Source: a virus | Direction: 5' to 3' (one strand) | Virus record (IMG/VR): IMGVR_UViG_3300047287_000356 | Span: 1 to 35,745 of that record | DNA length: 35,745 nt | In this document: piece by piece, positions 15,761 to 35,745 of the stretch | Layout: each line of letters starts with the position of its first letter | Numbering within the stretch: position 1 is the first letter of the stretch | The notes under the pieces: model-generated | The model's input: only the letters and a program-made list of their open reading frames with translations | What the model was told of the DNA's origin: nothing | Databases searched by the model: none | Position numbers and translations under genes: made by a program

Positions 15761-18355
15761 ATGGCAAACTTGAATAGACCGGGGGTTTTTGTCACCCAAA
15801 CCTCCACTGGTGGCTTGCCTCAACCTATCGCTACCCACGCAGTAGGTTACATCTTCGGTACCACCGAAAACGAGGAGTACTACAGCAATAATGCTCAAGG
15901 CTACTCCCCCCTGCTGCCTTATAAGCCCACTCAGATCGCTTCTACGGAAGATTTCGTAGCAAAATCCGGTGGGGTGATTCCTACAGCTAACGCTGGAGCT
16001 CTCGTTACTTATGACTCTATCAAAGGGTTTTTTGATAACGTAGGGACCAACGGCATTCTTTACTTCACCAGGGTAACTCCTACCCCGGAGACTTTGGTTA
16101 ACCTCGCAGCTTCTAGTGCTGGTAGTGGTTACAACGCCTTTGCCATTAAAGTAAACGGCAGGTATTTTGGTACACCGATCGGCATTAACGACGACGAAGG
16201 TACTGAGATCAAAGTAATTACAACCACCGGACTGGATCAGTACGATAACGCAAGAGACCTCTATCTGTTCCTGTCCGCATCTAGCGCTTCTTCGGACAAT
16301 TTCTCGGATTTCTACCGGGTAGAACAGACTGCAACAGAGGCTACACAGGCAAAATTCAGAATTTTCTCCAGGGACGTAACCAACCTACCAGAAATTAGCA
16401 ATTTTATTGCATATTCGTTCTCTGGAAGTGCTTATTCTTCTCCGGTAAACCTGCTCAGCTACACAACTCTGTACACTTCGATCAAAGAAGTCAACTTCCG
16501 TTGTGATTCTGTTGATGTTGGTACTGGTGAAGCCATCCGTTATGTATCAGGCGCCCAGTTAAGCTTGTTCATCGAGGCAAGAAACGACCAATTCCCTGGT
16601 ACTTACGACCCCGCAACTGATCAAAATCAAATCCTCAAGGATTTTCTAATTGACCAGAGCATTTACGCCAATGTAGTATCTATCCCCGACGGTAAAATCT
16701 TAGCTGTTTCGCTCGACTCCACCTCTGGTGTAGATCCTGCTAACAAGTGGAGAGATGTAGATGCTGGGTACTGGGTTTACGACCTTTCCGGTACGTCCTT
16801 TTCTCTGCTTGTAGATGGCTCGGACAAAATTCTACCTTCAGGGTCTATCTCTGGTGGTGTTAGAGAGGGCTATCTACCAAAAACCGTCCAGGTGTTCTAT
16901 GTCAACGTTCTTGGAGAAAACCGGGCCATTATCGTCAATGGCTCTACTCCTCAGGAGCTGGCTGACGAACTCCGGGACCAGCTAACTGCTCTGTTTGTGG
17001 AGAAGAACGTAGCTGAATACTACAAAATCGAGTCAGTAGCGTACCCGACTATCTCAACCGACACCTACACCGGTAACAACGGCAGTAGCTACTCGCTTCT
17101 AGTGAGCCAGGCTGGTGCTCCGTCTATTCGCCCGTCGTTTGAGGACAACTCCTATACCGGTAACGAGTTCTACTCGTTTGATTATGTCCTTAAGATCAAG
17201 ATCACCTCAAAAAATGGTGTTGCTGCTCCGGTAATTCCTGGTAACAACCGGTTTGGTATTCTGGACACCAACGTAGCGAGACTTAACTCATCGTCCCAGG
17301 ACGAAGACTATGAGTCTTACAAGCTTACCCAGATCGCAAAGGCCCAGGACTTTGTATATGCCATCGAAGAAGGGATGGGCTCTGCTACATTCGCACCTGG
17401 GTTCTTGTTTGCCCCTGAAGCGTATGCCGAGCTGGTATACAATGTAGACGGAGACCTGCAGAGTAAGTCTGAGGCCCGCCTTGAGAGGGTAAAGATCACC
17501 CAGTCCCTGACGAAAGTCGCAGAAGGTAACGTGGGTGTGACAGAAGGTGTCACTAACACCCAGCACATCGCTCTGATCGACTGTGGTGGAGACGAAGAGA
17601 ACCTGCCCCAGGCTCAAGACGAACTGGCAGTTATCAAATCGCTTGTCGGGGTACCTTATGGTCATGCCGCTTTCTACGCGCCTTACGTCCAAAACCTGAA
17701 CGACCGCTACGTGCCTGCTAGCGCATACGTCGCTGGTATTGCTTGCTCTCGTTATATCAACGAAGGCTTCCAGCAACCCCCTGCTGGCTCGCGTTACCCT
17801 TTGCGCGGTGCAAAGGGTCTTAAATTCACGATCAGTGCTCAACAACAGGAAGTCACTTACGCCCTCGGCCTGAACCCGATCCGTTCTCTGCCTAACCGTG
17901 GGATCGTTGCCTGGGGTGCTCGCACCTTATCAAGTAACGCTCTGTTCAAGTTCGTTAATACCCGCGCTATTCTCAACGTCATCATCGACGTTCTGGGGCG
18001 TAGCTTCGACGACATTCTGTTTGAACAGATTGATTCTGCAGGTACTCTGTACTCGCGGATTCGCTCCGTAGCTTCTCAAGTTCTGCACCAGTTCTACCGT
18101 CAAGGAGCACTGTTCGGCGGAAGCCCTGAGCAAGCCTATGCGATTGTCTGCTCCACAGACAACAACTCCAACACCGATCTAGAGCAGGGTACGGTCCAAG
18201 CCGACATTTACGTGTCCACCAGCCCGACTCTTGAGCGTATTCCCATCACCTTGATCCGCACTCCTGCTGGTCAAGTAGCCCTGATTAGCGATTCTTTCTC
18301 CCGTAATGGAGATAGATATACCACATCTTTGGGTATTACCTCTAACTTCCTGTGA
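15761..18355 (+). CDS. contractile tail sheath protein
   Basis: The 864-residue product is a tail sheath subunit, whose contraction drives the tube into the host. The N-terminus MANLNRPGVFVTQTSTGG is the usual sheath start. The C-terminal domain carries conserved blocks: RYPLRGAKGLKF, then LGLNPIRSLPNRGIVAWGAR, TLSSNALFKFVNTRA, a QGALFGGSPEQAYAI loop and VQADIYVSTSPTLERIPI. It is longer than Mu or P2 sheaths (about 400-500 residues), with a large insertion in the middle, as in other large myoviruses. Its stop overlaps the protease start (TGATG), so the two are translationally coupled. A late-type motif precedes it. Confidence 0.93.
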   Translation: MANLNRPGVFVTQTSTGGLPQPIATHAVGYIFGTTENEEYYSNNAQGYSPLLPYKPTQIASTEDFVAKSGGVIPTANAGALVTYDSIKGFFDNVGTNGILYFTRVTPTPETLVNLAASSAGSGYNAFAIKVNGRYFGTPIGINDDEGTEIKVITTTGLDQYDNARDLYLFLSASSASSDNFSDFYRVEQTATEATQAKFRIFSRDVTNLPEISNFIAYSFSGSAYSSPVNLLSYTTLYTSIKEVNFRCDSVDVGTGEAIRYVSGAQLSLFIEARNDQFPGTYDPATDQNQILKDFLIDQSIYANVVSIPDGKILAVSLDSTSGVDPANKWRDVDAGYWVYDLSGTSFSLLVDGSDKILPSGSISGGVREGYLPKTVQVFYVNVLGENRAIIVNGSTPQELADELRDQLTALFVEKNVAEYYKIESVAYPTISTDTYTGNNGSSYSLLVSQAGAPSIRPSFEDNSYTGNEFYSFDYVLKIKITSKNGVAAPVIPGNNRFGILDTNVARLNSSSQDEDYESYKLTQIAKAQDFVYAIEEGMGSATFAPGFLFAPEAYAELVYNVDGDLQSKSEARLERVKITQSLTKVAEGNVGVTEGVTNTQHIALIDCGGDEENLPQAQDELAVIKSLVGVPYGHAAFYAPYVQNLNDRYVPASAYVAGIACSRYINEGFQQPPAGSRYPLRGAKGLKFTISAQQQEVTYALGLNPIRSLPNRGIVAWGARTLSSNALFKFVNTRAILNVIIDVLGRSFDDILFEQIDSAGTLYSRIRSVASQVLHQFYRQGALFGGSPEQAYAIVCSTDNNSNTDLEQGTVQADIYVSTSPTLERIPITLIRTPAGQVALISDSFSRNGDRYTTSLGITSNFL

Positions 18356-20196
18356 TGGACCAAGTCCTTAACTCACAAGTACCTCTGACAGCACAACAAC
18401 CCAAAAGGGTTGTTAATGTTGAAATGTTCCGAGCTGGTCCTCAGATCAGCTCTACGGGACAAAAGATGATGTTCAGCGAAGACGACTTAGACCAGGTCGT
18501 AGGTAGTTATGACCCTGCCACTCATGAAGCTCCGCTGATCATTGGCCATGACCAGGAGGACGGAACTCCGGCTCTAGGTTGGGTCAGAGGGCTTTGGAGA
18601 AAAGGCAAAGAGCTTTGGGGTAAGGTCGAGCTTACCCCTAAGGCTGAACAGCTCATCAAAGATGGGGTGTTTAAAAAAGTAAGCAGTTCTTTCTACCTGC
18701 CCGATGCAGAAACTAACCCGACACCGGGTTCGCTATCTCTGCGCCATCTAGGGCTGGTTTCCATCCCAGCCGTCAAAGGTCTTACTGCTTTTGCAGAGGG
18801 TCTAGCAGGTCAAGAAACTGTAACTATCACCCCATCCGAGTGGGGATCTTCCATTTCGTTTAAAGAAACTTCAGAAACTAAACCAACTATGGCTAGAAAA
18901 AAGAACGCAACGAGCCCCATCTCGGTTGATCATGCTGATGGTGGGCCTATGACCGTTCATATCAACATCGGTTCGGGTCAATCCAAGCCGAATTTGTATG
19001 ACGGTGATGGTAATCGGATCAGTGAGACTGGTGCTCCGGCTGATTACGACATGGACTACGGGGATATGGACGCCGACCCTGAAATGGTTGACCCCAATCA
19101 ACAAGATCAACCTGGTCCTGGCATGTCGGATATGGATCCTACCCACGCTCCTATGGGTGAATCCCCTCAGGGCGAAGACGAAGACTATGTCGAGGGTCCT
19201 GACGGTGACAACATGGGCACCGAAGACGACGGCAGTGCTAAGCCTGTCGCAGAGCACCAGACCGTTCCCGGATCTGGCGGTGGCGGCACCCCGCCTACCG
19301 ACTCCGAGGACATCTCTGGTGATGTAGAGGGCGACGACAAAGTCGCTTCGCAACTTGCTTCGCAATATACTGAGGAGCAGCTTATCAAAGCGCTTTATAG
19401 TAAAACCAGTACTGCTTCCATGATGGAAGGCATGAGCTATTCTGAGTGCGGCGAGGACGACGATGAAAAGGAAGATTATAGCGAGTCTGATGACGACGAG
19501 AACCAACCCTCCAGAGAGAAAGAAGAAGAAAAAGGTGGCATGTTTGGTGAGAACGAAGAGGATGAAGAAGATGAAGATGAAGATGAAGATGAAAAGGACG
19601 ATGACGAGTGGGGCGGTAAATCAGACCATGCTGAGTGCGGTGGCGTAGATGCGAATCCCGCACCTATGACCGCAGGCACCAAGCCTGGTGGGAAGAGTGT
19701 TTCTGAAGCGGCTACAGGATCTCGTAGCTACAGCGAACCCGCTGTCAGAGATCGTGGCTTACAAGCCAGGGTAGCCGAACTGGAAGAAGAACTCGCCCGT
19801 CAGAAAAAGCTGATGCGTGAGAAGGAAATCACTGACTTTGCTGAGTCTGTCTACGACACAGGCCGACTCACTGCTCAGATTGTTCCTCCGTCTGATCTGG
19901 TTCGTTTCATGGAGACCCTCAACTCCAAGAACACAGTCAACTTCAGCGAGGCTGGGAAAACTTCCCAGTATGACTTCTTCAAGTCCATGTTGGAAAACCT
20001 TCCGGCAATGGTCAGCTTTGAAGAAGTTGCCACTAAGACTTCTGCTCCGGCCAAGAAGTCTGCACCTAAGCCTACTGTCGACGGTTATGTATATGACCCG
20101 AGAACTTCTGACCTGCATGCTCAGGCTCTGGAGTATTCAGAAAGCAAAGGTGTAACTTACGAGATTGCCTTGCGCAATGTCTTGTCGGAAAACTGA
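18355..20196 (+). CDS. prohead protease / scaffold fusion (Mu gpI-like)
   Basis: The 613-residue protein starts at ATG 18355 overlapping the sheath stop. Residues 20-150 resemble the Mu gpI prohead protease: LIIGHDQEDGTPALGWVRG holds a likely catalytic His, and FKKVSSSFYLPD holds a likely Ser. The rest is scaffold-like: a Gly/Pro/Asp-rich middle, a stretch of alternating Glu/Asp (near residues 390-425), a heptad region (ARVAELEEELARQKKLM) and a C-terminal helical part. In Mu and lambda, protease and scaffold share a reading frame and the scaffold also starts internally. Here a GTTTAAAG motif (18858-18865) lies 23 bases before an in-frame ATG at 18889. It precedes the decoration and capsid genes, as expected. 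Confidence 0.85.
   Translation: MDQVLNSQVPLTAQQPKRVVNVEMFRAGPQISSTGQKMMFSEDDLDQVVGSYDPATHEAPLIIGHDQEDGTPALGWVRGLWRKGKELWGKVELTPKAEQLIKDGVFKKVSSSFYLPDAETNPTPGSLSLRHLGLVSIPAVKGLTAFAEGLAGQETVTITPSEWGSSISFKETSETKPTMARKKNATSPISVDHADGGPMTVHINIGSGQSKPNLYDGDGNRISETGAPADYDMDYGDMDADPEMVDPNQQDQPGPGMSDMDPTHAPMGESPQGEDEDYVEGPDGDNMGTEDDGSAKPVAEHQTVPGSGGGGTPPTDSEDISGDVEGDDKVASQLASQYTEEQLIKALYSKTSTASMMEGMSYSECGEDDDEKEDYSESDDDENQPSREKEEEKGGMFGENEEDEEDEDEDEDEKDDDEWGGKSDHAECGGVDANPAPMTAGTKPGGKSVSEAATGSRSYSEPAVRDRGLQARVAELEEELARQKKLMREKEITDFAESVYDTGRLTAQIVPPSDLVRFMETLNSKNTVNFSEAGKTSQYDFFKSMLENLPAMVSFEEVATKTSAPAKKSAPKPTVDGYVYDPRTSDLHAQALEYSESKGVTYEIALRNVLSEN
18858..18865 (+). promoter_or_regulatory. internal late promoter-like motif GTTTAAAG before nested scaffold start
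   Basis: Plus-strand GTTTAAAG lies inside the protease coding region, 23 bases before the in-frame ATG at 18889. The spacing equals that at the portal gene. Confidence 0.6.
18889..20196 (+). CDS. nested scaffold protein (internal start in protease gene)
   Basis: This frame is the C-terminal 435 residues of the protease/scaffold gene, beginning MARKKNATSPISVDHADGG. It excludes the whole protease domain and keeps the acidic and coiled-coil parts, just as the Mu Z or lambda Nu3 scaffold is nested in the protease gene. The start is supported by the GTTTAAAG motif 23 bases upstream and by the basic N-terminus (ARKK) after the protease domain. No clear Shine-Dalgarno is visible. The role would be an internal scaffold for capsid assembly that is degraded by the full-length protease. 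The nested product is inferred, not proved. Confidence 0.6.
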   Translation: MARKKNATSPISVDHADGGPMTVHINIGSGQSKPNLYDGDGNRISETGAPADYDMDYGDMDADPEMVDPNQQDQPGPGMSDMDPTHAPMGESPQGEDEDYVEGPDGDNMGTEDDGSAKPVAEHQTVPGSGGGGTPPTDSEDISGDVEGDDKVASQLASQYTEEQLIKALYSKTSTASMMEGMSYSECGEDDDEKEDYSESDDDENQPSREKEEEKGGMFGENEEDEEDEDEDEDEKDDDEWGGKSDHAECGGVDANPAPMTAGTKPGGKSVSEAATGSRSYSEPAVRDRGLQARVAELEEELARQKKLMREKEITDFAESVYDTGRLTAQIVPPSDLVRFMETLNSKNTVNFSEAGKTSQYDFFKSMLENLPAMVSFEEVATKTSAPAKKSAPKPTVDGYVYDPRTSDLHAQALEYSESKGVTYEIALRNVLSEN

Positions 20197-20748: not shown

Positions 20749-22653
20749 ATGATGAATCTTGATCAGGTTAGGGTTATTGACCCTATCCTCACGCAACTTG
20801 CACAGGGTTAATTTGGTAGCCGTGCCACGGAGTAATCTGTGGTATAATAAGGGGGTGAATTGCTGGGAAACCTAAGTTCAAACCTTCAGCCATGGAAACC
20901 ATCTACGATCAGTTTATTAAACACTGTTCGAGCATTGAGAGTCAAGAAGTAAAGTCTGGAATTTATATGGAAAAACACCATATAGTACCCAGACACTGCG
21001 GGGAGGTGATGAGAAAACTAACATCTTACTTCTCTCCAGAAAAAATCACATCTTAGCTCACTACTACAGGTGGATTTCTTATAATTCTCCTAAAGATAAA
21101 ATAGCCTATCTTTTTATGGTAGGTGATCCTACAGGGGAAGCAAAGAGAGAGTCGGGTAGATTAGCTCAAAAGACATGGACGCCACAAAAGCGATCTGAAT
21201 GTTCTAAAAAAGCTTATCAAACCATGCTTATAAGGAATTCTGGGATGGTCTTTAGGGGTGAGTCTTGGAAGAAAAATGTCTCTGATGCTGCCAAGCGAAA
21301 TATCGCTGAAAACAGATCAAAGAGAATCTCTCCAGACACTCTAATTCTATATGATTCTGTATTTGAATTCAAATATAAGAACTCAAAGGAAGTCATCAAC
21401 CAGTCCGACTTTTCTGATTTTGTCCAAACCAGTAAGCACTTGTGCTCTGTTTTTGGACTAAACGTCAAGGAAAGTGAGCATAAAAAATTCTTAGTCTTTG
21501 TGAAAGGAAAAAGAAAATCTTTTCATGGCATTGTTTTGAATAAGGTAATCAGCAGCCAAGCCGTAGAGGGCACAGGTTCTACGGAAGGTTCAACGACTAG
21601 ACAGTGAGTCCCAACAATAATCTGTCCAAGAGCGCCCTCCAACCTGCAAAGGTTGAAGATATAGTCTGGACTTATAGGAAACTATAAGAAGTAGAGTTTA
21701 AATGACTTTACGTTAACATACCGTACAAAAATGCTGAAGGTGTAGCTACCTTCTTCGGTCCTGCAGTTAGTATGAATGTTCGCGCTGGTAGAACACTTGT
21801 GTTTGGCAAGGAAGCCTTTGCTGCACAAACTTTCTTACGCGCACCTGGTGCCAACATTCAGAAGATCCAAAACCAATTCGGTACTCGTAGTTTCTCGCTT
21901 CGTCAAGAAGCGATTAGCTGGGCAATCGCCGAAGAGGTCGCTGCCGAAGCCAAAAACGGGGCCGCACAGATCGACCTGCGTCAATACGCAGCTAAGGACG
22001 CTGCTAACCGTCTCATGCAGTCCTGGGAAGTACAAGTCGCTGACAAAGTGACCGACATTGCCCAGTACGAGACCGACAACGTCCTCGACCTGTCCACCTA
22101 CAACGGTGGTGCTGATCAATTTAATAACCCCACCTCGGACATCGAGGTGCTCATGGACGCCGCTAAGGAACAAGTCCGTAGCCAAATTGGTATTTATCCC
22201 AACAAGCTCGTACTTAGTCCTGATGCTTTTAACGCCCTCAAGCGTAACAAGCGTATCCGTGACTTCATGCAGCGGGGTATTCTGGTCGACGAGAAGAGCC
22301 TTGCTCAGATCTTCGGCCTTGATGAGATTCGTGTTGCTCGTCGTCTCAAGCTGGACCAGGAAACTGGTGCTCTGGAGAACATCTACAACAACATCGCGAT
22401 TCTCTTCTACCATCCTAGTGCTTCGACTGATGGTTTCATGCCTGCTCTTGATAGCAACTACGGTAATCCGGCTTATGCCTATACCTACACGCTGTCTGGC
22501 TATCCTATCGCCACTCCTGAGCGCTTCAACGTAGACACCCGTGTCTTCACTGGTGACATCCTTGTTGAACGTAGCTTTGAGCTGGTTGGTATGGGTGAAA
22601 ACGGCAAGTGCGGTTCTGGCTTCGTGTTCCAGAATCCGGTTGGTGAACTTTGA
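20749..22653 (+). CDS. major capsid protein, split by a group I intron
   Basis: Exon 1 (20749-20808) encodes MMNLDQVRVIDPILTQLAQG and then meets an in-frame TAA. Exon 2 (21724-22653) resumes YKNAEGVATFFGPAV and runs to TGA, for 329 residues in total. The join restores LAQG-YKNAEG, the continuity expected in HK97-fold capsid proteins, where an N-terminal VRVIDPILT helix is followed by GYKNAE. Exon 2 holds the family-like segments GRTLVFGKEAF and NKLVLSPDAFNALKRNK. Without splicing only a 20-residue peptide would be made, or an N-truncated protein from ATG 21772, so the intron must be removed for capsid assembly. The gene follows decoration and scaffold genes and is closed by a strong terminator. 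Confidence 0.9.
20840..20848 (+). promoter_or_regulatory. extended -10 promoter candidate inside intron
   Basis: TGGTATAAT (TGn plus a perfect -10 hexamer at 20843-20848) lies 43 bases before the intron endonuclease ATG. The 12-base string CTGTGGTATAAT is identical to that of the tRNA-Val promoter at 31739-31750. No good -35 is seen here, and the bases also belong to the intron fold. Confidence 0.4.
20892..21607 (+). pseudogene. intron-encoded HNH homing endonuclease, frameshifted
   Basis: Frame one starts at ATG 20892 (METIYDQFIKHC) and reaches the HNH start EKHHIVPRHCG, but stops at TAG 21054. The rest of the family pattern continues in another frame: DEKTNILLLSRKNHILAHYY, then a basic C-terminal domain to TGA at 21607. 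Adding one G to the GGGG run at 21000-21003 would join both into a 238-residue protein of the T4 HNH type. So it is a recently broken homing endonuclease, a recoding site, or a sequencing error in a homopolymer. The gene's 3' end overlaps the intron R element. If truly broken, the intron may splice but not home. Confidence 0.8.
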
Positions 22654-23222: not shown

Positions 23223-23993
23223 ATGCCGCATACTCCTTACCCGGACGAGTTCGGCGTTGCCAATAATTGCGACCCGGCAACGGTAGATTATTTTATCGAA
23301 GTATTCGGCTACCAGGAAGCGGTAGAATTATCAAATATTGACGCACCTACTGGTAACAAAATTAACTACGGTAAGATTCAAATCGCTTTGAACGATGCCG
23401 CAGTATTAATCAATAACTACATCACTACAGCTCCTCCGCAGGGTAAAATCCTAATCGCTGGGTCTTACCGCCGCACCCAGGCAATCCTGGCTCGTGCATA
23501 TCTCGACACTCTGAGGCCCCGCGATCAGGTCCTAGAAGCGGCTAGAAAGGCCATGGACCAGCTTGACCTATGGGCGTCTCGTCAGTCGCCTTCAAGCGGC
23601 CTACGGTGGCAGGAAGCGTACAGATACTACGGTGGTACTTGCGGTATGGTCAGGTCTAATTTCCGCAGAGGTCGCAGCTACAGCGAAGACTCAATGTCGC
23701 GTTGGGTTCTTCGTGAAGGTGGCAACAACCGTTGGAATATGGTCCCTCGTAAGGAAGCTCATACCTCGGCACGAGGGGGTCAACTTGGACCGTCCGGCAG
23801 CCTGGACCACCCAATACCGGTCCCTAACTCAGTCATCGAGGCCAACGAGCTATTCGACTCACTTGAAACCACCAGAGACGTGTCGTCTTTCACCGACTCA
23901 CACGACGCCAGCTCCCCGGAAGATGGGTCGGTATTAGCTGGTAACGACGAGGGTAACCTCACCAGCGGTCTACAAGAATCTGATACTTTCTAA
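23223..23993 (+). CDS. head-tail connector (Mu gp36 / DUF1320-like)
   Basis: The first 120 residues match the pattern of DUF1320 (Mu gp36) neck proteins: a start motif near YFIEVFGYQEAVELSN, a helix IQIALNDAAVLINNYI, and a second helical half with RRTQAILARAYLDTL and EAARKAMDQLDLWAS. These proteins form the ring joining portal to tail. The C-terminal 120 residues are longer than in Mu: a Arg/Tyr-rich segment, then a Ser/Asp-rich disordered tail. It has its own late-type motif and is followed within 2 bases by the next small gene. Confidence 0.65.
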   Translation: MPHTPYPDEFGVANNCDPATVDYFIEVFGYQEAVELSNIDAPTGNKINYGKIQIALNDAAVLINNYITTAPPQGKILIAGSYRRTQAILARAYLDTLRPRDQVLEAARKAMDQLDLWASRQSPSSGLRWQEAYRYYGGTCGMVRSNFRRGRSYSEDSMSRWVLREGGNNRWNMVPRKEAHTSARGGQLGPSGSLDHPIPVPNSVIEANELFDSLETTRDVSSFTDSHDASSPEDGSVLAGNDEGNLTSGLQESDTF

Positions 23994-23995
23994 TC

Positions 23996-24343
23996 ATGAC
24001 ATCTAATCAAACTTACGGCTACGATCCTTTTTATGCTCACGACCCCAGCACTGGAGGTATGGCGATCGTCGACGAAGGTATCGACGGTGGCAGTTGCTAC
24101 TACGGACATGGAAGCTATGGTCGGTTAATGCGTCGTCTAGCTATTTTCCCAGATAGCACACCATACAAGCAAACCCTGGCTGAACTGAGGCAATATATTA
24201 TCGAGCTGGAGACAACTCGACGGTTTGAGGACCTGTCTAATGTGTCGTTCTCGCGGTCTCCACAACCCGGTGATCTAGTTGCGTATAACTACATAACCGG
24301 TAAGTGGGAGCTAACAGATTACGTCTGCGGTGGCCCCTGGTAA
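23996..24343 (+). CDS. hypothetical virion-associated protein (115 aa)
   Basis: The 115-residue protein starts MTSNQTYGYDPFYAHDPST, is Gly/Tyr-rich at the N-terminus, has a helix at about residues 55-75 (KQTLAELRQYIIELETT), and ends with PQPGDLVAYNYITGKWEL. I do not recognise it. Translation starts 2 bases after the neck gene stop, so it is expressed together and is probably a minor neck or head component. It overlaps the convergent gene by 25 bases. Confidence 0.6.
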   Translation: MTSNQTYGYDPFYAHDPSTGGMAIVDEGIDGGSCYYGHGSYGRLMRRLAIFPDSTPYKQTLAELRQYIIELETTRRFEDLSNVSFSRSPQPGDLVAYNYITGKWELTDYVCGGPW

Positions 24344-24654
24344 TGAAGGTGTGGTGACTTCTGAGCAGAAAATTCAAAAAGACTTTTCCAAGCTTCAGCG
24401 TGCTTAGCAGAACCTAAGCAGGTGACTACCTGAGCAGTTTCAGGGGAGAAAAGCTCAAACATTGAAGCCTTTAACGAGTCTTGTTCGTGTTGTTCTATTA
24501 CCGCCTCTAGACGGGTGATGATGTAAATATGCCCGTCTTCTGACAAGTAGTCCCATCTTCCTTTTAGCCATCCAACCGTACTGAACACAAATTTTGATGT
24601 TTTACCCAGCATAAGCTCCATTGCGTCCGTTGCGTCGATGTCTTCTGGGGTCAT
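24319..24654 (-). CDS. hypothetical protein (111 aa)
   Basis: The 111-residue acidic protein (MTPEDIDATDAMELMLGKTS onward) has an alpha/beta pattern including DYLSEDGHIYIITRLEAVIE and a helical C-terminus (AEAWKSLFEFSAQ). No family is recognised. It is antisense to its neighbours, sitting alone between rightward virion genes, which could mark an inserted accessory gene. Confidence 0.55.
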   Translation of the reverse strand: MTPEDIDATDAMELMLGKTSKFVFSTVGWLKGRWDYLSEDGHIYIITRLEAVIEQHEQDSLKASMFELFSPETAQVVTCLGSAKHAEAWKSLFEFSAQKSPHLHYQGPPQT

Positions 24655-24688: not shown

Positions 24689-25624
24689 ATGTTACTGGAA
24701 ATTGAAAATCAACTCCACAAGAGAATCCACAGGACTCTGGGACAGGACGCTGTAGTATTAAGGTTGGCAGAAGAACTGGATAAATCCGGCAGGGTGTCGG
24801 AACAGACGATGATCATTGTTAGTTTCACATCGAGTGAGACAACTAATCCTAACAAGGGAGCCTACATCCCGACTGTTCGCGCTAGACTTCTTACGTATAC
24901 CCTGACATTAGTCCAGAAGCAAGCCCAGCGAGAGGGGCACAGCTTTGCCCTACCTTTACTCGACCTCATGGCAGATTCTGTGACTGGTTGGGTGCCAGAG
25001 GTCCCAGGTCTTGAATTCCGAACAGGATTTGAGCTGTCTTCAGAAAAGTTTGTCCAGATAACCGAAGAAGCTTCTCAGTTTATTTACGAGCAGTCGTATG
25101 AAATTGAAGTATCTGTATCCGATGGTAGATTTTACAGCCAGCCTTGTGCAGCTTATGATCCTATTTCTATCGAAGATTACCTACCAAAACGTACCTGCCT
25201 CGTAACCCCAGGTGGGTTGAAAACTGGCCTGGCTGTATGGCGGCGTAAGGTTAATGACATAGAGTACGACGAGAAAGTAGTTGACTGTGATCAAGTATGT
25301 AAATCCCGCATGGGAGACGTACTGGAAGTAACCTGTTCTGAATCATTAAATGGAACCGCAACATATAGGTTTATTCCCAAAGAAGCTATTAGCTATGTAA
25401 GCGGGGACAGGATCATCGACGAAAACAAAGTCGTCTCAGGTACTTTGCAGAAAGTCTGGAAATGCTACAGAGGTAACACTGGCGAGTCTTGTCCGCCTTG
25501 GTTTAAAGTTGATGTAGGCATGAATCTGTGGAGAAATGCCATTGACACAGTTCCCAACCAAGATGAAGGAACATCGGCAGTACAACAACTGCAGACGATA
25601 AAAACAAAACACAAACCGCAATGA
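24689..25624 (+). CDS. tail completion/terminator protein (Mu gp37-like, putative)
   Basis: The 311-residue protein's first 170 residues resemble Mu gp37 (DUF1834)-type tail terminators: N-terminal helix (LEIENQLHKRIHRTL), beta strand TMIIVSFTSSET, helical LTYTLTLVQKQAQREGH followed by LPLLDLMADSVTGW, then paired strands ending YEIEVSVSDG. Such proteins cap the tail at the neck. The C-terminal 130 residues form an extra domain with several Cys (CDQVCKSRMGD and WKCYRGNTGESCPPW). This extra domain has no assignment. It overlaps the ferritin gene by 4 bases (ATGA), so they are coupled. Confidence 0.5.
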   Translation: MLLEIENQLHKRIHRTLGQDAVVLRLAEELDKSGRVSEQTMIIVSFTSSETTNPNKGAYIPTVRARLLTYTLTLVQKQAQREGHSFALPLLDLMADSVTGWVPEVPGLEFRTGFELSSEKFVQITEEASQFIYEQSYEIEVSVSDGRFYSQPCAAYDPISIEDYLPKRTCLVTPGGLKTGLAVWRRKVNDIEYDEKVVDCDQVCKSRMGDVLEVTCSESLNGTATYRFIPKEAISYVSGDRIIDENKVVSGTLQKVWKCYRGNTGESCPPWFKVDVGMNLWRNAIDTVPNQDEGTSAVQQLQTIKTKHKPQ

Positions 25625-26034
25625 AAGATCAACTAATTGAAACCCTCACGGCTCTGAACTGTGTCGCTAATGCAGCTCAACTAGCCCACTGGAACATTAC
25701 CGGCAAAGACTTTTATCAACTACACCTGATGTTTGAACGTATCTACGGTACGCTATCAGGTCAGCTTGATGCTCTTGCTGAACAAGCACGTGGGTGTGGT
25801 GTTGAAATCCCGGCCAAGGTGTTCAATAGCGTCCCGGAGGTAGAGTGGTCCAGTAGTGAAGAGCTTGTAAAAGAAATTGGCAGACTGAATAGCAAGTATA
25901 AGTCCAGTCTTAAAGATTTGCATGAAGATTGTGGCGATGCCGGTAATCTTGGCCTGGTAAACCTAATCGAAGGCTATCTGACGGATGTAAATACGGTTGA
26001 ATTTCTGCTAAAAGCCACTGCTGACCTGCTCTGA
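25621..26034 (+). CDS. Dps-like ferritin
   Basis: A 137-residue four-helix protein of the Dps/ferritin-like family. The signature HWNITGKDFYQLHLMFE is at residues 23-39. The ferroxidase ligands H23, H35, E39, D50 and E54 have exactly the spacing of the E. coli Dps set (H51, H63, D67, D78, E82). Dps dodecamers oxidise ferrous iron with peroxide at subunit interfaces and so protect DNA. It is shorter than bacterial Dps and lacks the Lys-rich N-terminal tail, so DNA binding of the tail type is unlikely. The ATG overlaps the stop of the virion gene upstream, so it is probably expressed late. The role in infection is inferred: protection of DNA from oxidative damage or iron handling. Confidence 0.85.
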   Translation: MKDQLIETLTALNCVANAAQLAHWNITGKDFYQLHLMFERIYGTLSGQLDALAEQARGCGVEIPAKVFNSVPEVEWSSSEELVKEIGRLNSKYKSSLKDLHEDCGDAGNLGLVNLIEGYLTDVNTVEFLLKATADLL

Positions 26035-26035
26035 T

Positions 26036-26308
26036 TTAAAAAGTCAGAGTTTTACGAGTTAACAAATTTATAATCGTACGGGGATCAGCAGACGACGCCA
26101 CAGGTATGTGCGGTGCGTCTAGAATATACCCGCTGTAATATACTTTGCCAGTGTATTGGCTTTCATAACCTTCAATGTGCACCGTCCCCACTCCGGGGAC
26201 AAACATTACAACAGATTTATCGTTGACTACGTCGATTTTATCGACATTGAGCATCAGCTTGAGAAGATTTCTCCCACCAAGCGAATCGATAAGAGCGTTG
26301 TCTACCAT
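26036..26308 (-). CDS. hypothetical protein after DNA polymerase (90 aa)
   Basis: The 90-residue beta-rich protein (LLKLMLNVDKIDVVNDKSVV then GVGTVHIEGYESQ) is unrecognised. Its ATG overlaps the polymerase stop codon by several bases, so it is translated together with the polymerase, and it converges on the ferritin gene with a 1-base gap. A replication accessory role is possible on position only. Confidence 0.6.
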   Translation of the reverse strand: MVDNALIDSLGGRNLLKLMLNVDKIDVVNDKSVVMFVPGVGTVHIEGYESQYTGKVYYSGYILDAPHIPVASSADPRTIINLLTRKTLTF

Positions 26309-28971
26309 AGATCTAGCATGGTGTAGGACTTTCCATCAGGTTCAGGTTGTGTTTGAGATACGGTCAGCGTGGAAGATGTCGCTGACTTACGGAAAATCCG
26401 GTCAATCTCAATACTAGATAGCCAGGCATTGGCCACAGGCATCTCGTAGATACCAAAATTAAACCGTAGCCAGGACCAGCACCAGACATGGGCGACTTGG
26501 AACATCCTTGCAACGTCTACAGCTTGATCTTCAGGACACATGTACAGCACACTGTCGTGAACAGCCATGCAGAACTTCGCATCGAGATTGTGCTGCTGAC
26601 AGAGCCATACCATTGCGGTGACGAACCCATGTAGCATAGCACTTCCAGTAGACTGGATGCACCAATTGTTACGCATGGTCCAGAAGTCAGAGTTGACCGT
26701 CTCAGGGCGGAAAGCTGTCGACATCAGTGTGCCCGACAAAGGGTTGACTGGGCAAGCAGAGTCGGCAATGGCAGCCATGACGTTGTAAGCAAAAGAATCC
26801 GAACCGTCAACGAGGCTTCCGGTCATTGGAGAGACAACACCTTTTTTGGCACGGATTAGCTTTTTACCTAGCAGCATTGCTTCGGTCATAGGAATAGACT
26901 TGTTCCCTTGTCGAATAGTATCTGCGAGAGTCTTAGCTCCACAACCGTATAGCATGGCATAGTTACAACCCTTAGCAACACCACGGTTAGATGGCATACC
27001 GAGTGTTCGCGCAGTAACCGAGTGCATGTCAGTGCCATCGTCCTTAGAACCAGCAAGGATCGAATGGCTAAGTTGGCTACTACCGGCAACTTTATGATAC
27101 GAGTCGGCAAAGATACTGGCTACGACAGCCTCTTGAGCATCAAAGTCAGACTGGACGAAGGTATATCCGGCTGGGGCTTGAACTCTCGTCTTGATCTCGG
27201 ACCCGATTTTGTCGTATTTAGGGTCAGGTACAGTCAGCCACAGTCTCTCTCCGGCGCGGTTAGTCGATGTGTTATGCGGTACTGTAGCCGGAACGATCAA
27301 GTTAAACTTTGTACCGGGTTGTAATTTGTTATCTACTTGTACTGGAAGTTGTGCTAGCACACGGCTACGAACTGAAGTCCAGTAGGCGACATTAATCGCG
27401 AGTCGGATAAGCTCTTTAGCCTGAGGCAAGTCTGAACTCAACACCCCCGATTCAAATTCAGGCAGATACTCTTTACTAAGAATCCCACCAACGTTCGCCC
27501 CTTCTTTCTTATAGTGGGGGATTTTGAGATCTTTATTGCTGGCTCTGTCACGGTACATCCAGCCAGAGTCTTTAACATACACAATCGGAGAGTCATTCCA
27601 CTTAAAACGCAACAAAAGATGCGAGATACGAGACTTAGTAGTAATAGGCTTCATTACCACCTTACCAGAATCGTCGAGTTCGCTAATATTTCTCACCCAT
27701 TGCGGTACGCCATACCACTTAGAACGAGGTTTGTTTGCCTTAGTAAGCTGGTTATTGCACGTCCAGTCAAGTTGCCTCAACCACGGGTCTTGATCGATTT
27801 CAAGCTGGTCCTCTCGCCAGTCTTTGTACAGCTCCTGGGCCAGTTCCTGCAAAAGTTTATCTTGTTCGGCCAGGGCGGCTTGCCATTGACTCTCACAGCC
27901 TTGTAGCCATTGGTCCCAGTTATCGACCACAGGAAGAACCGAAGACGATATAGCGAAGTGCCCGCATAGAGTAGTAGGTGAAGGATTGCTATTCAGGTAC
28001 TTAGGTACAAGCTTACTTACTAACTCCCATGTACGGAATACATCGTTAAGGGCATAAGAGACTAACTCCTCCCTATCAGGTTGCATTTCTGCCATGCTAT
28101 TCGCTACGACAAAAATATCACGAGTCTTCTTGTCTTGCTTTTCCATGCGCCTAGGTGCGCAGTGGAAGTTGTAACAATCGACGAGGTTGTTCAATGACCC
28201 GTATTTAGCCCACTTCGGCTGGTAGCGGATGTCCTCTTCGTCATCGGATGAATCCTTAAAAAACCAGCGTTGATCTGAGGCTAGGCCACTCACATTGATA
28301 TGAGCGGACATTGTATCGAACCACAAGTTAGTATTGCCTAATGTGTAAGCTTCTGCGGTCCGTTGCCGGTCAAATGCAACGTTATGGGCAATCAACAGTG
28401 CTTTATCAGTACCAAGGGGCACAAACTGTGGGCTGTAAGTCAAGTCAGGGTTGACAAAACACTCGTGCATCCAGACGTAATATGCACTATCACTAACAGC
28501 AGTTGCAAGTATCGGGTGCCCGAATGAGCTACCTTTTACGAAGGTCTCACAGTCAAATACTGCAATATCGCAACCTAGCTTGTCGACTTGTTTTACAACC
28601 CAACCGGCCTGTGACCAGGCATAACTGACCCAGCCAGGAACATATAACAATTCAGAAGCTGGGGGTGGCTCAGGTACTGACGCAGAAGAAAACTTATTAA
28701 GCAAGTCAATCTTGCCCTGCATCAGTGTTCGTGAGATCGTTTCAAAATGTTGAGAGATATTCTTACCTTGTAGCAAGGGGAGATCCAGGTCGTCAGGTAA
28801 GTTGCTAAAAGACTTGGGGTTTTTTATGGGAAATTCTACGCCGAATTTCTCCATGTTCGACCTGATCTGGCTGATGGCGTATTCATCGACCTTCTGCTGC
28901 TTGACGTTGCCAAAGACCTTTTGCTGGATCTTTTCCGGTAGAATTGCGTAGCCGAGTTGATTGGTTTCCAT
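26302..28971 (-). CDS. family A DNA polymerase, mitochondrial Pol gamma-like
   Basis: An 889-residue replicative polymerase with 3'-5' exonuclease. Exo I FDCET (D140, E142), Exo II HNVAFDR (196-202) followed by LWFDTMSAHINVSGL, and Exo III around YALNDV (306-311). Polymerase motif A is SDFDAQE (608-614), motif B NRGVAKGCNYAMLYGCG (R663, K667, Y671), and motif C HDS (805-807), where most relatives have HDE. The region before motif A (KIGSEIKTRVQAPAGY) and after it (GTDMHSVTARTLGM), and the FWTMRNNWCIQSTGSAMLHG block, follow mitochondrial Pol gamma rather than E. coli Pol I. A Pol-gamma-like enzyme is known from cyanophage S-TIM5. Phosphatase and polymerase overlap (TGATG). No primase or helicase is in this window. 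Confidence 0.93.
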   Translation of the reverse strand: METNQLGYAILPEKIQQKVFGNVKQQKVDEYAISQIRSNMEKFGVEFPIKNPKSFSNLPDDLDLPLLQGKNISQHFETISRTLMQGKIDLLNKFSSASVPEPPPASELLYVPGWVSYAWSQAGWVVKQVDKLGCDIAVFDCETFVKGSSFGHPILATAVSDSAYYVWMHECFVNPDLTYSPQFVPLGTDKALLIAHNVAFDRQRTAEAYTLGNTNLWFDTMSAHINVSGLASDQRWFFKDSSDDEEDIRYQPKWAKYGSLNNLVDCYNFHCAPRRMEKQDKKTRDIFVVANSMAEMQPDREELVSYALNDVFRTWELVSKLVPKYLNSNPSPTTLCGHFAISSSVLPVVDNWDQWLQGCESQWQAALAEQDKLLQELAQELYKDWREDQLEIDQDPWLRQLDWTCNNQLTKANKPRSKWYGVPQWVRNISELDDSGKVVMKPITTKSRISHLLLRFKWNDSPIVYVKDSGWMYRDRASNKDLKIPHYKKEGANVGGILSKEYLPEFESGVLSSDLPQAKELIRLAINVAYWTSVRSRVLAQLPVQVDNKLQPGTKFNLIVPATVPHNTSTNRAGERLWLTVPDPKYDKIGSEIKTRVQAPAGYTFVQSDFDAQEAVVASIFADSYHKVAGSSQLSHSILAGSKDDGTDMHSVTARTLGMPSNRGVAKGCNYAMLYGCGAKTLADTIRQGNKSIPMTEAMLLGKKLIRAKKGVVSPMTGSLVDGSDSFAYNVMAAIADSACPVNPLSGTLMSTAFRPETVNSDFWTMRNNWCIQSTGSAMLHGFVTAMVWLCQQHNLDAKFCMAVHDSVLYMCPEDQAVDVARMFQVAHVWCWSWLRFNFGIYEMPVANAWLSSIEIDRIFRKSATSSTLTVSQTQPEPDGKSYTMLDLW

Positions 28972-29825: not shown

Positions 29826-30326
29826 CTACAAGCCCTGTCTGTAATTGGGATTGGGACTTCCTCCTCTGACAACTTTAGACTGCCTGCTGGAATATTTACC
29901 AGCACATGACCGACTACAAAATGGACCAGCTTTTTTCTTTAATAAGTTCCCCTTTACATCATTCATAGGTTTAGTAGCAGACTTTTTGCACTCTGGGCAG
30001 GTAAAAGTGTACATCTGCTGTGTGTGTCTCAAAGCATGATATTTAGAGGAGTTCTCCGCCCTGGTTAAAACTTGCAGATTTTCTGGGCTGTCATTGATGG
30101 GATCTCCATCTATGTGATCTACAGTTTCTTCTTCAGTTAGTTTTCTGCCTATCTTAATCTCAAGAATTAGACGAGCTGCCTGGCAAGTTTTCCAACGTGC
30201 ACCATCATATACATCATATATTTTCCTATTGTTTTTCTTCCATATGTATGGACCTCTGAGTTTTGCTTTCGGCCCATAAATAGGTAAGAGTTGCTGAAGA
30301 GTAGGGACGGTGGGAGTCGAACCCAC
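29826..30326 (-). CDS. HNH homing endonuclease (tRNA-linked)
   Basis: An HNH endonuclease with AP2-like N-terminal sequence (KNNRKIYDVYDGARWKTC), the HNH block DHIDGDPINDSPENLQVLT and a C-terminal zinc-ribbon-like CPECKKS with CSRSCAG. Such enzymes cut an intronless or gene-free allele to spread their own gene. The nearest in-frame start is a GTG at 30326, inside the tRNA-Leu(UAG) gene. The frame stays open through the tRNA to an ATG at 30422. No start lies between tRNA and the protein-like part, so the start cannot be settled. It separates tRNA-Leu from the gene fragment downstream, which suggests insertion there. Confidence 0.75.
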   Translation of the reverse strand: MGSTPTVPTLQQLLPIYGPKAKLRGPYIWKKNNRKIYDVYDGARWKTCQAARLILEIKIGRKLTEEETVDHIDGDPINDSPENLQVLTRAENSSKYHALRHTQQMYTFTCPECKKSATKPMNDVKGNLLKKKAGPFCSRSCAGKYSSRQSKVVRGGSPNPNYRQGL

Positions 30327-30384
30327 AATGCCAAAGGCACCGGAACCTAAAACCGGCCGATCTACCAGATTCTCGTACGTCCCC
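30302..30384 (-). tRNA. tRNA-Leu(UAG)
   Basis: An 83-base cloverleaf: acceptor GGGGACG/CGTCCCT, D arm CGA/TCG with GGTAGA, anticodon loop UUUAGGU (UAG, decoding CUA), variable arm TGCC-TTT-GGCA, T arm GTGGG/CCCAC with TTCGACT. CCA is not encoded. The stem next to the anticodon loop ends in a U-U mismatch but is otherwise sound. The frame of the HNH gene runs through it. Confidence 0.9.
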
Positions 30385-30427
30385 ATAATCTCCAGTGCGT
30401 CTACGTCTCCTTGGGTGGACATGGGCT

Positions 30428-31044: not shown

Positions 31045-31581
31045 CTACTTTAAACGCACACGTCCTTTTACCCAACCGGGAGGTATGGGTTCAGTCAGAG
31101 GGATAAATCTATTAGTAACTCCGTTGTTAATGACGTATCTACTCATATAGCCTTCTACCCAACCAGGTGGGATAATATCAAACTTTGAGATATATTTTTC
31201 AATAACCCCGTTGTTAATTCTTTTTCTATTCTCCGATAGCAGCAAACCCCGACGAGACTGTTCTTTACTATATTCTAATTCATCCGTGAATCTTTTTCTA
31301 TAAGAGTTGTGCATGTGAAACATTTTGTCCAAATCGGGATATTTTTCCCATTTAGCTTTTCCGCCTTTCTCAGCAGCTTTGCTGACCCAAAACTTTCCTC
31401 TTTCGTAGAGGTGTGGGGGCAAATATTTTAGCTGTCGGCGATGAATGCACGGTCTACCGTAATGCTCGGACTGGTATACGCTCAAGATAGCGTGTGCTCT
31501 GGCACTGATCAGTACGAGGTTGCTCGGATCGTCAGACCCCCCCATGCACCTTGGGACGATGTGATGCAACTCCTTGGTCAT
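31045..31581 (-). CDS. HNH homing endonuclease (behind tRNA-Thr)
   Basis: A 178-residue HNH protein: ELHHIVPRCMGGSDDPSNLV at residues 4-23, then a helical ARAHAILSVYQSEHYG. The C-terminal half holds two copies of a motif with INNGV followed about 13 residues later by IPPGWV, probably DNA-contact modules. The ATG lies one base after the 3' end of tRNA-Thr, so it rides on the tRNA transcript. Its last codons contain the late motif of the next gene. A freestanding homing endonuclease linked to tRNAs is common in T4-like phages. Confidence 0.85.
   Translation of the reverse strand: MTKELHHIVPRCMGGSDDPSNLVLISARAHAILSVYQSEHYGRPCIHRRQLKYLPPHLYERGKFWVSKAAEKGGKAKWEKYPDLDKMFHMHNSYRKRFTDELEYSKEQSRRGLLLSENRKRINNGVIEKYISKFDIIPPGWVEGYMSRYVINNGVTNRFIPLTEPIPPGWVKGRVRLK
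31048..31055 (-). promoter_or_regulatory. late promoter-like motif GTTTAAAG before membrane protein gene
   Basis: Minus-strand GTTTAAAG, within the last codons of the HNH gene, 23 bases before ATG 31024. Confidence 0.6.
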
Positions 31582-33125: not shown

Positions 33126-33455
33126 TCACCGTACAACTTTCTTAATGTTGTAGCTTTGAGGCTTGAAATACCTCAGCACCTCAGATACAAGGTGTTCAGA
33201 CTGGATAGACCCGCAAGAAAACATGTCAATAGCAATGCTATTTTTCTCGGGCCAGGAGTGAGCTGAAAAATGTGACGTGGACAACAAGGCGAGGTAGGTG
33301 TACCCCCCTTCTCCAGGGAACTTGTGGTAACAATCGCTTAAAACCTCTGCCATACACTCCCGTAGAAGCGGTCTGATAAAATCGATAAAAGATTGCATGT
33401 CTTCCAGAAGCAGTCTATCGACTTCAAATAGATCGACAAGGAAGTGCTGTCCCAT
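33126..33455 (-). CDS. speD: S-adenosylmethionine decarboxylase
   Basis: A 109-residue prokaryotic-type SAM decarboxylase, making decarboxylated SAM for spermidine synthesis. The signature STSHFSAHSWPE is at 59-70 and MFSCG at 78-82. Ser61, His66 and Cys81 match the spacing of Ser63, His68 and Cys83 of the Thermotoga enzyme: the Ser becomes the pyruvoyl cofactor after self-cleavage, and His and Cys assist. The residue before the Ser is Thr where Glu is usual. SpeD is a common auxiliary metabolic gene of cyanophages. Expression with the leftward early or middle block is inferred. No spermidine synthase gene is in the window. Confidence 0.93.
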   Translation of the reverse strand: MGQHFLVDLFEVDRLLLEDMQSFIDFIRPLLRECMAEVLSDCYHKFPGEGGYTYLALLSTSHFSAHSWPEKNSIAIDMFSCGSIQSEHLVSEVLRYFKPQSYNIKKVVR

Positions 33456-34886: not shown

Positions 34887-35183
34887 TCAATCTCCGTCTT
34901 GAGGCTGTTCAGCTCGTCCTGCAGCGTCATTGATCTCTTTGGTCAATTGTTCTGCCATCCTAACAAACCTGTCTGGGGTCTTTGCAACCCCCTTGTTGCG
35001 ATTCGTAAGGTACCAGCGGTCCATCTGCAACTGCGGCCAGAGCTTGAGCCAGAGAACGGCCTTTTGCCACCACAACTGAGGGTAGAGAGTCAAATACAGA
35101 TATACGGTGGCGAAAAAACTGCGATCGTTGTAAATAAGGATCGAACTCAAGATCAGAATACAGATTAGGTCTGTCGGGGTCAT
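34887..35183 (-). CDS. small membrane protein (98 aa)
   Basis: The 98-residue protein has one N-terminal hydrophobic helix (LICILILSSILIY, residues 6-18), then an aromatic stretch (SFFATVYLYLTLYPQLWW) that may form a second membrane-associated segment, and a charged C-terminal half. A late-type GTTTAAAG lies 20 bases before the ATG, which overlaps the topoisomerase stop. It could be a lysis or membrane-remodelling protein. That is speculative. Confidence 0.65.
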   Translation of the reverse strand: MTPTDLICILILSSILIYNDRSFFATVYLYLTLYPQLWWQKAVLWLKLWPQLQMDRWYLTNRNKGVAKTPDRFVRMAEQLTKEINDAAGRAEQPQDGD

Positions 35184-35745
35184 GCTTTAACCAATTTTTT
35201 AGTCTTTAAACGAGTTTTTGCCTCGCTGGTGTGGTATTTGGCCCGTCTAGACGATGAAAACCCCTTAAAAGTGGTGATTTGAGTGACAATCTCGTCGTCT
35301 AACCGGTCCTCACTGGCCAAAATGGCGGTAATTTCCGCCTTTCTACCCCGTAAAGAGGCAATTTTTGCCTTTAAGTCGGCAATTTCCGTCTTGATAAGCC
35401 GCGAGAGCGGTGTTTTGAGCACTTCTTCGGCCTGAAACTCGCTCAAAGACCACTTAGACCGCAAAGATTTGACCGCAGCAGCCCGATCTTTAGATTTTTT
35501 TAAGATTTCCACCAACATAGAGGTGTCTCCGAGCACTTTTTCAATACCGCATAGGCGTTCTATGGCTTTATCAACACCTAACTGCTCATTTACGAACCGT
35601 TCAGTCAAGTAATTTTTGCGTTGCACATACCAGTATTGGATAATATCCTTAACTCCGAGCACTTTAGGCATGCCATCCACGACAGCAGTGGCGTTAACAC
35701 TATGAACATGAGACAAATTAGTATTAGCAAGGAGCACTTTGATTA
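35180..35745 (-). CDS. type II DNA topoisomerase subunit A-like, partial (C-terminal part)
   Basis: The visible 187 residues are the end of a type IIA topoisomerase cleavage subunit (GyrA/ParC/T4 gp52 type). The start IKVLLANTNLSHVHSVNATA, then VVDGMPKVLGVKDIIQYW, match the region where the gyrase/topo IV A subunit meets its coiled coil, followed by the helix YVQRKNYLTERFVNE and the long coiled-coil arm to the end. The catalytic Tyr domain lies outside the window, upstream. No beta-pinwheel domain follows, as in T4 gp52, so it is of the short type. The frame is open to the edge. Its stop overlaps the membrane protein start. Confidence 0.85.
   Translation of the reverse strand, partial: IKVLLANTNLSHVHSVNATAVVDGMPKVLGVKDIIQYWYVQRKNYLTERFVNEQLGVDKAIERLCGIEKVLGDTSMLVEILKKSKDRAAAVKSLRSKWSLSEFQAEEVLKTPLSRLIKTEIADLKAKIASLRGRKAEITAILASEDRLDDEIVTQITTFKGFSSSRRAKYHTSEAKTRLKTKKLVKA
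35204..35211 (-). promoter_or_regulatory. late promoter-like motif GTTTAAAG before membrane protein gene
   Basis: Minus-strand GTTTAAAG inside the topoisomerase 3' end, 20 bases before ATG 35183. Confidence 0.6.

Follow-up and report, generated by a model that had tools for sequence, protein, structure and literature searches.

Gene content of the window

The window, meaning the whole stretch of 35,745 nucleotides that was analysed (IMG/VR record IMGVR_UViG_3300047287_000356), is a genome fragment from a relative of cyanophage S-TIM5 (Aurunvirus), as indicated by its major capsid protein and polymerase (Table 1) and by its tail sheath, which has 67% identity to that of S-TIM5 over the best segment. 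The genes of interest form one run, in which the tail sheath gene is followed by those for the head maturation protease, the major capsid protein and the head-tail adaptor, by the homologues of gp155 and gp156, and by dps; beyond it lie a convergent 90-aa ORF and the polymerase gene. The dps ORF is intact, from its ATG start to its TGA stop.

Table 1. Positions of the genes, overlaps and ligand codons of the window.
Feature	Position	Strand	Evidence or remark
Tail sheath	15761..18355	+	phrog_17610, 1.4e-264
Head maturation protease	18352..20196	+	phrog_976, 8.4e-72
Major capsid protein	21772..22653	+	phrog_1005, 1.8e-54; 80% identity to S-TIM5
Head-tail adaptor, gp154 homologue	23223..23993	+	phrog_195
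gp155 homologue, virion structural protein per S-TIM5 annotation	23996..24343	+	S-TIM5 comparison
111-aa ORF, opposite strand, between gp155 and gp156	24319..24654	-	no family match; 98% copy in L001, undetected in other loci searched
gp156 homologue, probable Mu-type tail terminator	24689..25624	+	63% identity to S-TIM5 gp156; model matches
ATGA stop/start overlap of dps with the upstream gene (translational coupling)	25621..25624	+	sequence
dps, 137-aa Dps-type mini-ferritin, closing the head/neck/tail-terminator gene run	25621..26034	+	PF00210, phrog_3636, AlphaFold2 model, Foldseek
H23 codon, ferroxidase ligand, helix A, W24 next	25687..25689	+	H in 48/48, W in 45/48 of the lineage
H35 codon, ferroxidase ligand, helix B	25723..25725	+	H in 48/48
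E39 codon, fifth ferroxidase ligand, site B	25735..25737	+	variable: E 25, M 8, Q 6, G 5, A 4
D50 codon, ferroxidase ligand, partner subunit by homology	25768..25770	+	D in 48/48
E54 codon, ferroxidase ligand, partner subunit by homology	25780..25782	+	E in 48/48
Convergent 90-aa ORF, one base past the dps stop	26036..26308	-	86% identical copy in L001
Convergent DNA polymerase, gamma-like family A	26302..28971	-	phrog_22619; 59% identity to S-TIM5 polymerase
HNH endonuclease-like ORFs, scattered; probably homing elements	29826..30422, 31045..31581	-
S-adenosylmethionine decarboxylase (speD), usual cyanophage auxiliary metabolic gene	33126..33455	-
DNA gyrase/topoisomerase IV subunit A-like ORF, partial, at fragment end	35180..35737	-

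The model of the gp156 homologue is modest (mean pLDDT 64.9), and its matches are Mu-type tail terminators first and other tail terminators after them (2gjv, the Mu terminator 9khy, T5 p142, lambda gpU and T4 gp15). The protein is probably a Mu-type tail terminator, for which reason the original prediction was right to call this ORF a tail gene. The overlap of its stop with the dps start, which had also been pointed out, is the ATGA of Table 1; in all 47 relatives measured the distance between the terminator stop and the dps start is within -4 and +47 nt, and in 15 of them the two overlap. With the major capsid protein, the head-tail adaptor and the probable terminator in the same run, the placement of dps within a virion gene block also holds. 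Host contamination of the contig was considered and rejected, since the identical gene order was found in 63 loci. A close relative of the window (L001:1003-3846) encodes, between its capsid and head-tail adaptor genes, a 947-aa protein with many SFPLLDVS-type repeats, which is absent from the window.

Three relatives with dps carry psbA and the window itself carries speD, which makes a cyanobacterial host very probable, in agreement with the photosynthetic host assumed previously. The S-adenosylmethionine decarboxylase gene is also found in other cyanophages, such as S-SRM01 (PMC8557907).

Fold, ligands and charge of the encoded protein

The protein matches the Pfam Ferritin family PF00210 (44.5 bits against a cut-off of 24.5, 1.9e-11) and the phage Dps family phrog_3636 (1.6e-14). 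Profile comparison with solved structures retrieved many Dps proteins, the best being Borrelia NapA (2pyb), matched at 2.4e-13 over nearly the whole length. The ferritin-like fold, whose absence, together with that of ferroxidase activity, had been named beforehand as a refutation, is present in the AlphaFold2 monomer model, built with 29 phage homologues as input (mean pLDDT 93.8): helices 2-25, 31-58, 79-107 and 110-136 form a four-helix bundle, and the short BC helix (66-69) lies between B and C. In Foldseek the 50 best PDB matches to this model are all Dps, including the cyanobacterial proteins of Thermosynechococcus, Nostoc and Thermoleptolyngbya. The assignment to Dps-type ferritins is thus borne out by Pfam, PHROG, the high-confidence fold and Foldseek alike.

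In VIA-align, 12-mer mini-bacterioferritin and bacterioferritin chains tied with Dps (Z 19.6 versus 18.7), so that the fold by itself is no proof of Dps; therefore, the family call also uses the Dps-specific ligand pattern and the sequence profiles. ExxH motifs with an intra-subunit di-iron site are the defining feature of bacterioferritins and mini-bacterioferritins, and no ExxH motif occurs in the window Dps sequence. Against the NCBIfam equivalog PRK09448 (E. coli-type Dps) the protein scored 36.5 bits, below the cut-off of 114; judged from its sequence, it is a family relative of E. coli-type Dps, not its orthologue. Pfam PF19174 (DUF5856) overlaps the phage Dps proteins, with matches in 19 of the 29 members scanned (best 1.4e-10), L168, the dps of the genome of L026, being among the related cases. 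DUF5856 could thus itself be ferritin-like; the idea that it is a family apart was rejected, since it overlaps the Dps proteins themselves.

Residues H23, H35, E39, D50 and E54 were said to reproduce the exact Dps spacing, and they do, at spacings of 12, 4, 11 and 4. When the window protein was shuffled 200,000 times with its composition kept, the pattern H-x11-H-x3-[DE]-x10-D-x3-E arose in 4 cases; with profile, fold and conservation concordant, a chance origin of the motif was rejected. Across 48 distinct proteins of the lineage, with identities down to 33%, H23, H35, Y42, D50, E54 and R57 are invariant. A His-type centre as in NpDps4 and TeDpsA, in which His replaces the site-A Asp (position 78 of NpDps4), was rejected on the Asp at position 50 in every one of them. 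The gene is under strong purifying selection, with dN/dS about 0.03 (0.025-0.061 across the eight pairs that allowed its computation).

That the ferroxidase centre is complete is correct for the window copy, which has all five ligands, and does not extend to the lineage, where position 39 is E in 25 proteins and M, Q, G or A in the other 23. Another 44 phage Dps proteins were collected separately by a DNA pattern, which by its design fixes the His residues; all 44 have D50 and E54, and only 7 have a carboxylate at position 39. Phage Dps proteins often lack the fifth ligand, and for this reason the complete centre should not carry the argument; as these alignments indicate, the four-ligand site is what selection keeps, and the five-ligand centre is a property of the window copy.

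Since nearly half of the relatives have lost the fifth ligand, the rate, metal or oxidant may differ from those of canonical Dps. One might then suppose that the four-ligand site holds Fe, Mn, Cu or Zn and buffers or withholds the metal, peroxide chemistry being absent. The non-carboxylate residues at position 39, in 23/48 relatives and 37/44 other phage proteins, speak for this, as does Borrelia NapA, the best profile match, which has Q at the equivalent position. Borrelia NapA is also unusual in its metal use. We nevertheless find such sequestration improbable, because the window copy has E39, the invariant ligands are those of site A, and Nostoc Dps4, which has no carboxylate at position 67, still oxidises Fe(II) with O2 (PMC6675082). 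In canonical Dps the inter-subunit centre consists of two His and an Asp/Glu of one chain with an Asp and a Glu of its partner, the fifth-ligand residue contacts site B via a water molecule, and Fe(II) oxidation is coupled to H2O2 (PMC6675082). A ferritin fold recruited for morphogenesis or structure alone, its metal chemistry gone, would fit the position of the gene; this is most improbable given the invariance of the four metal ligands (48/48) and the roughly one in six loci that have no dps and presumably still build particles.

The protein is acidic, with a pI of 4.67 in the window copy, 4.3-4.7 over the sequences computed, and a net charge of about -9 to -16. The Lys/Arg-rich N- or C-terminal extension of the DNA-binding Dps subclass is absent from the window protein, where helix A begins at residue 2 and the first and last ten residues contain one K/R. 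Compaction or shielding of phage DNA by direct coating, which the family name and the PHROG label "DNA binding protein" might suggest, is very improbable for a tail-less protein of this charge, and direct DNA binding is not favoured by its sequence.

Distribution of dps in the lineage

Through gp156, 80 IMG/VR loci were gathered by similarity, near-duplicates included, of which 75 had enough downstream sequence. The dps gene lies immediately 3' of gp156 in 63 of these 75 and is missing from 12. In an unrooted gp156 tree of 58 distinct sequences (50 with dps, 8 without), the loci without dps form one fully supported clade on a long inner branch, which includes S-TIM5 and S-TIM54, and whole-genome searches found no dps elsewhere in these two phages. 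The presence of dps requires one change on this tree, a value as low as which was reached in none of 500 shuffles. Because the tree is unrooted, one loss in the S-TIM5 clade is indistinguishable from one gain in the rest. Distance matrices of dps and gp156 are correlated (Mantel r 0.75), as expected if both genes travel together. The gene is therefore close to fixed in an uncultured cyanophage branch, while the cultured marine S-TIM5 relatives are without it.

Recent capture of dps from a host was rejected, as two scans of genome contigs, which depend on conserved peptides and may let distant relatives escape, gave no cellular relative, and the GC content of dps (0.457) is close to that of the window (0.464).

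Proposed role and comparison with known ferritins

We favour, with a probability of about 60%, a tail-less Dps owned by the phage, made late and coupled to the tail terminator, that would oxidise and store iron and so spare the cell and its DNA from Fenton damage. Judged from its position, dps would be expressed late, co-transcribed and translationally coupled with the terminator gene. Its product would assemble, by homology, into a cage of 12 subunits, in which Fe(II) would be bound by H23 and H35 (and by E39 in the window copy) of one subunit and by D50 and E54 of its partner. The bound iron would be oxidised by peroxide or O2, iron and these oxidants being the presumed substrates, and the ferric product kept inside the cage. 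The benefit would be the joint removal of Fe(II) and H2O2, so that, until lysis, Fenton chemistry would harm neither the DNA being replicated and packaged nor the photosynthetic cell. Detoxification is preferred to DNA coating because the protein is tail-less and acidic, and iron and peroxide management by the phage Dps is plausible. Counting against it, the well-sampled S-TIM5 clade lives without dps.

The main rival is a mini-ferritin carried in or on the particle (head interior or neck), where it might shield packaged or injected DNA or bring iron. In its favour, dps is the final morphogenesis-run gene in almost all relatives and is coupled to that of the tail terminator. Some weight comes from other uncultured phages, in which Dps domains are fused to larger proteins: two IMG/VR ORFs of 743 and 371 aa (L176:664-2895; L183, around 2370-2411) carry a Dps domain, and UniProt names some of the larger proteins prohead proteases. 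The BFVD entries with such fusions are A0A6J7XDU5, A0A6J7WIS1 and A0A6J7WPK9, and one of the larger proteins has a C-terminal DUF5824 domain. We regard carriage by the particle as unlikely, because the dps of the S-TIM5-related lineage has neither a packaging signal nor a fusion, the dps genes of phiEco32 and LAh_9 sit among nucleotide-metabolism genes, a late-operon gene need not specify a virion part, and the S-TIM5 clade forms virions without it. Rather unlikely, too, is the version in which the mini-ferritin is a late virion-associated part that loads or removes iron at the particle, and thus a structural-module ferritin instead of an auxiliary metabolic gene.

An iron- and peroxide-handling protein of this kind would be nearly fixed across an uncultured cyanophage branch, beside virion genes and under strong purifying selection. 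Comparing phages with and without dps would address directly whether phages handle iron and peroxide in their photosynthetic hosts, and the gene has a bearing on the suggestion that iron is carried by phage particles.

Phage Dps as such is already known. Lactobacillus phages encode Dps, for which peroxide protection has been suggested (PMC6669764), and a ferritin is known from giant viruses (PMC7136201). Searches of the literature brought up neither a paper that discusses Dps in cyanophages nor a description of a near-fixed dps locked to the tail-terminator end of a morphogenesis operon across a lineage, and a query with a Vibrio Dps gave no relatives in viruses.

The phage proteins of phrog_3636, from S-SRM01 and its relatives, phiEco32, Lactobacillus phages, Bacillus phage G and Streptomyces phages, share the four core ligands with the window protein, at about 20-35% identity and in other gene neighbourhoods. 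A second, separate group of cyanophage Dps, S-SRM01-like and of 144-145 aa, is common in IMG/VR (L034-L089, e.g. L034:3092-3526; S-SRM01 itself, L006:2980-3414). In this group the fifth-ligand position is occupied by G and the next residue is mostly E or D, whereas the window copy has E39.

Among the cellular proteins, the NapA of Borrelia burgdorferi, closest by profile, is longer than the window Dps and differs from it at the E39 position. The cyanobacterial Dps of T. elongatus (Dps and DpsA), N. punctiforme (Dps4) and Thermoleptolyngbya (Dps1) share its fold (query-normalised TM-score 0.83-0.89) at 17-21% identity, but the window protein has D50 in place of the His of the His-type centre, and it scores 22.8 bits with the NCBIfam cyanobacterial DpsA model, whose cut-off is 300. 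Compared with canonical bacterial Dps (Listeria innocua, E. coli, Bacillus Dlp/MrgA; PF00210), the window protein is shorter (137 aa) and tail-less, its BC region is several residues shorter, identity is 17-24%, and the fifth ligand is unconserved in its lineage; common to both are the fold, the short BC helix, the ligand pattern of the ferroxidase centre and the HW motif.
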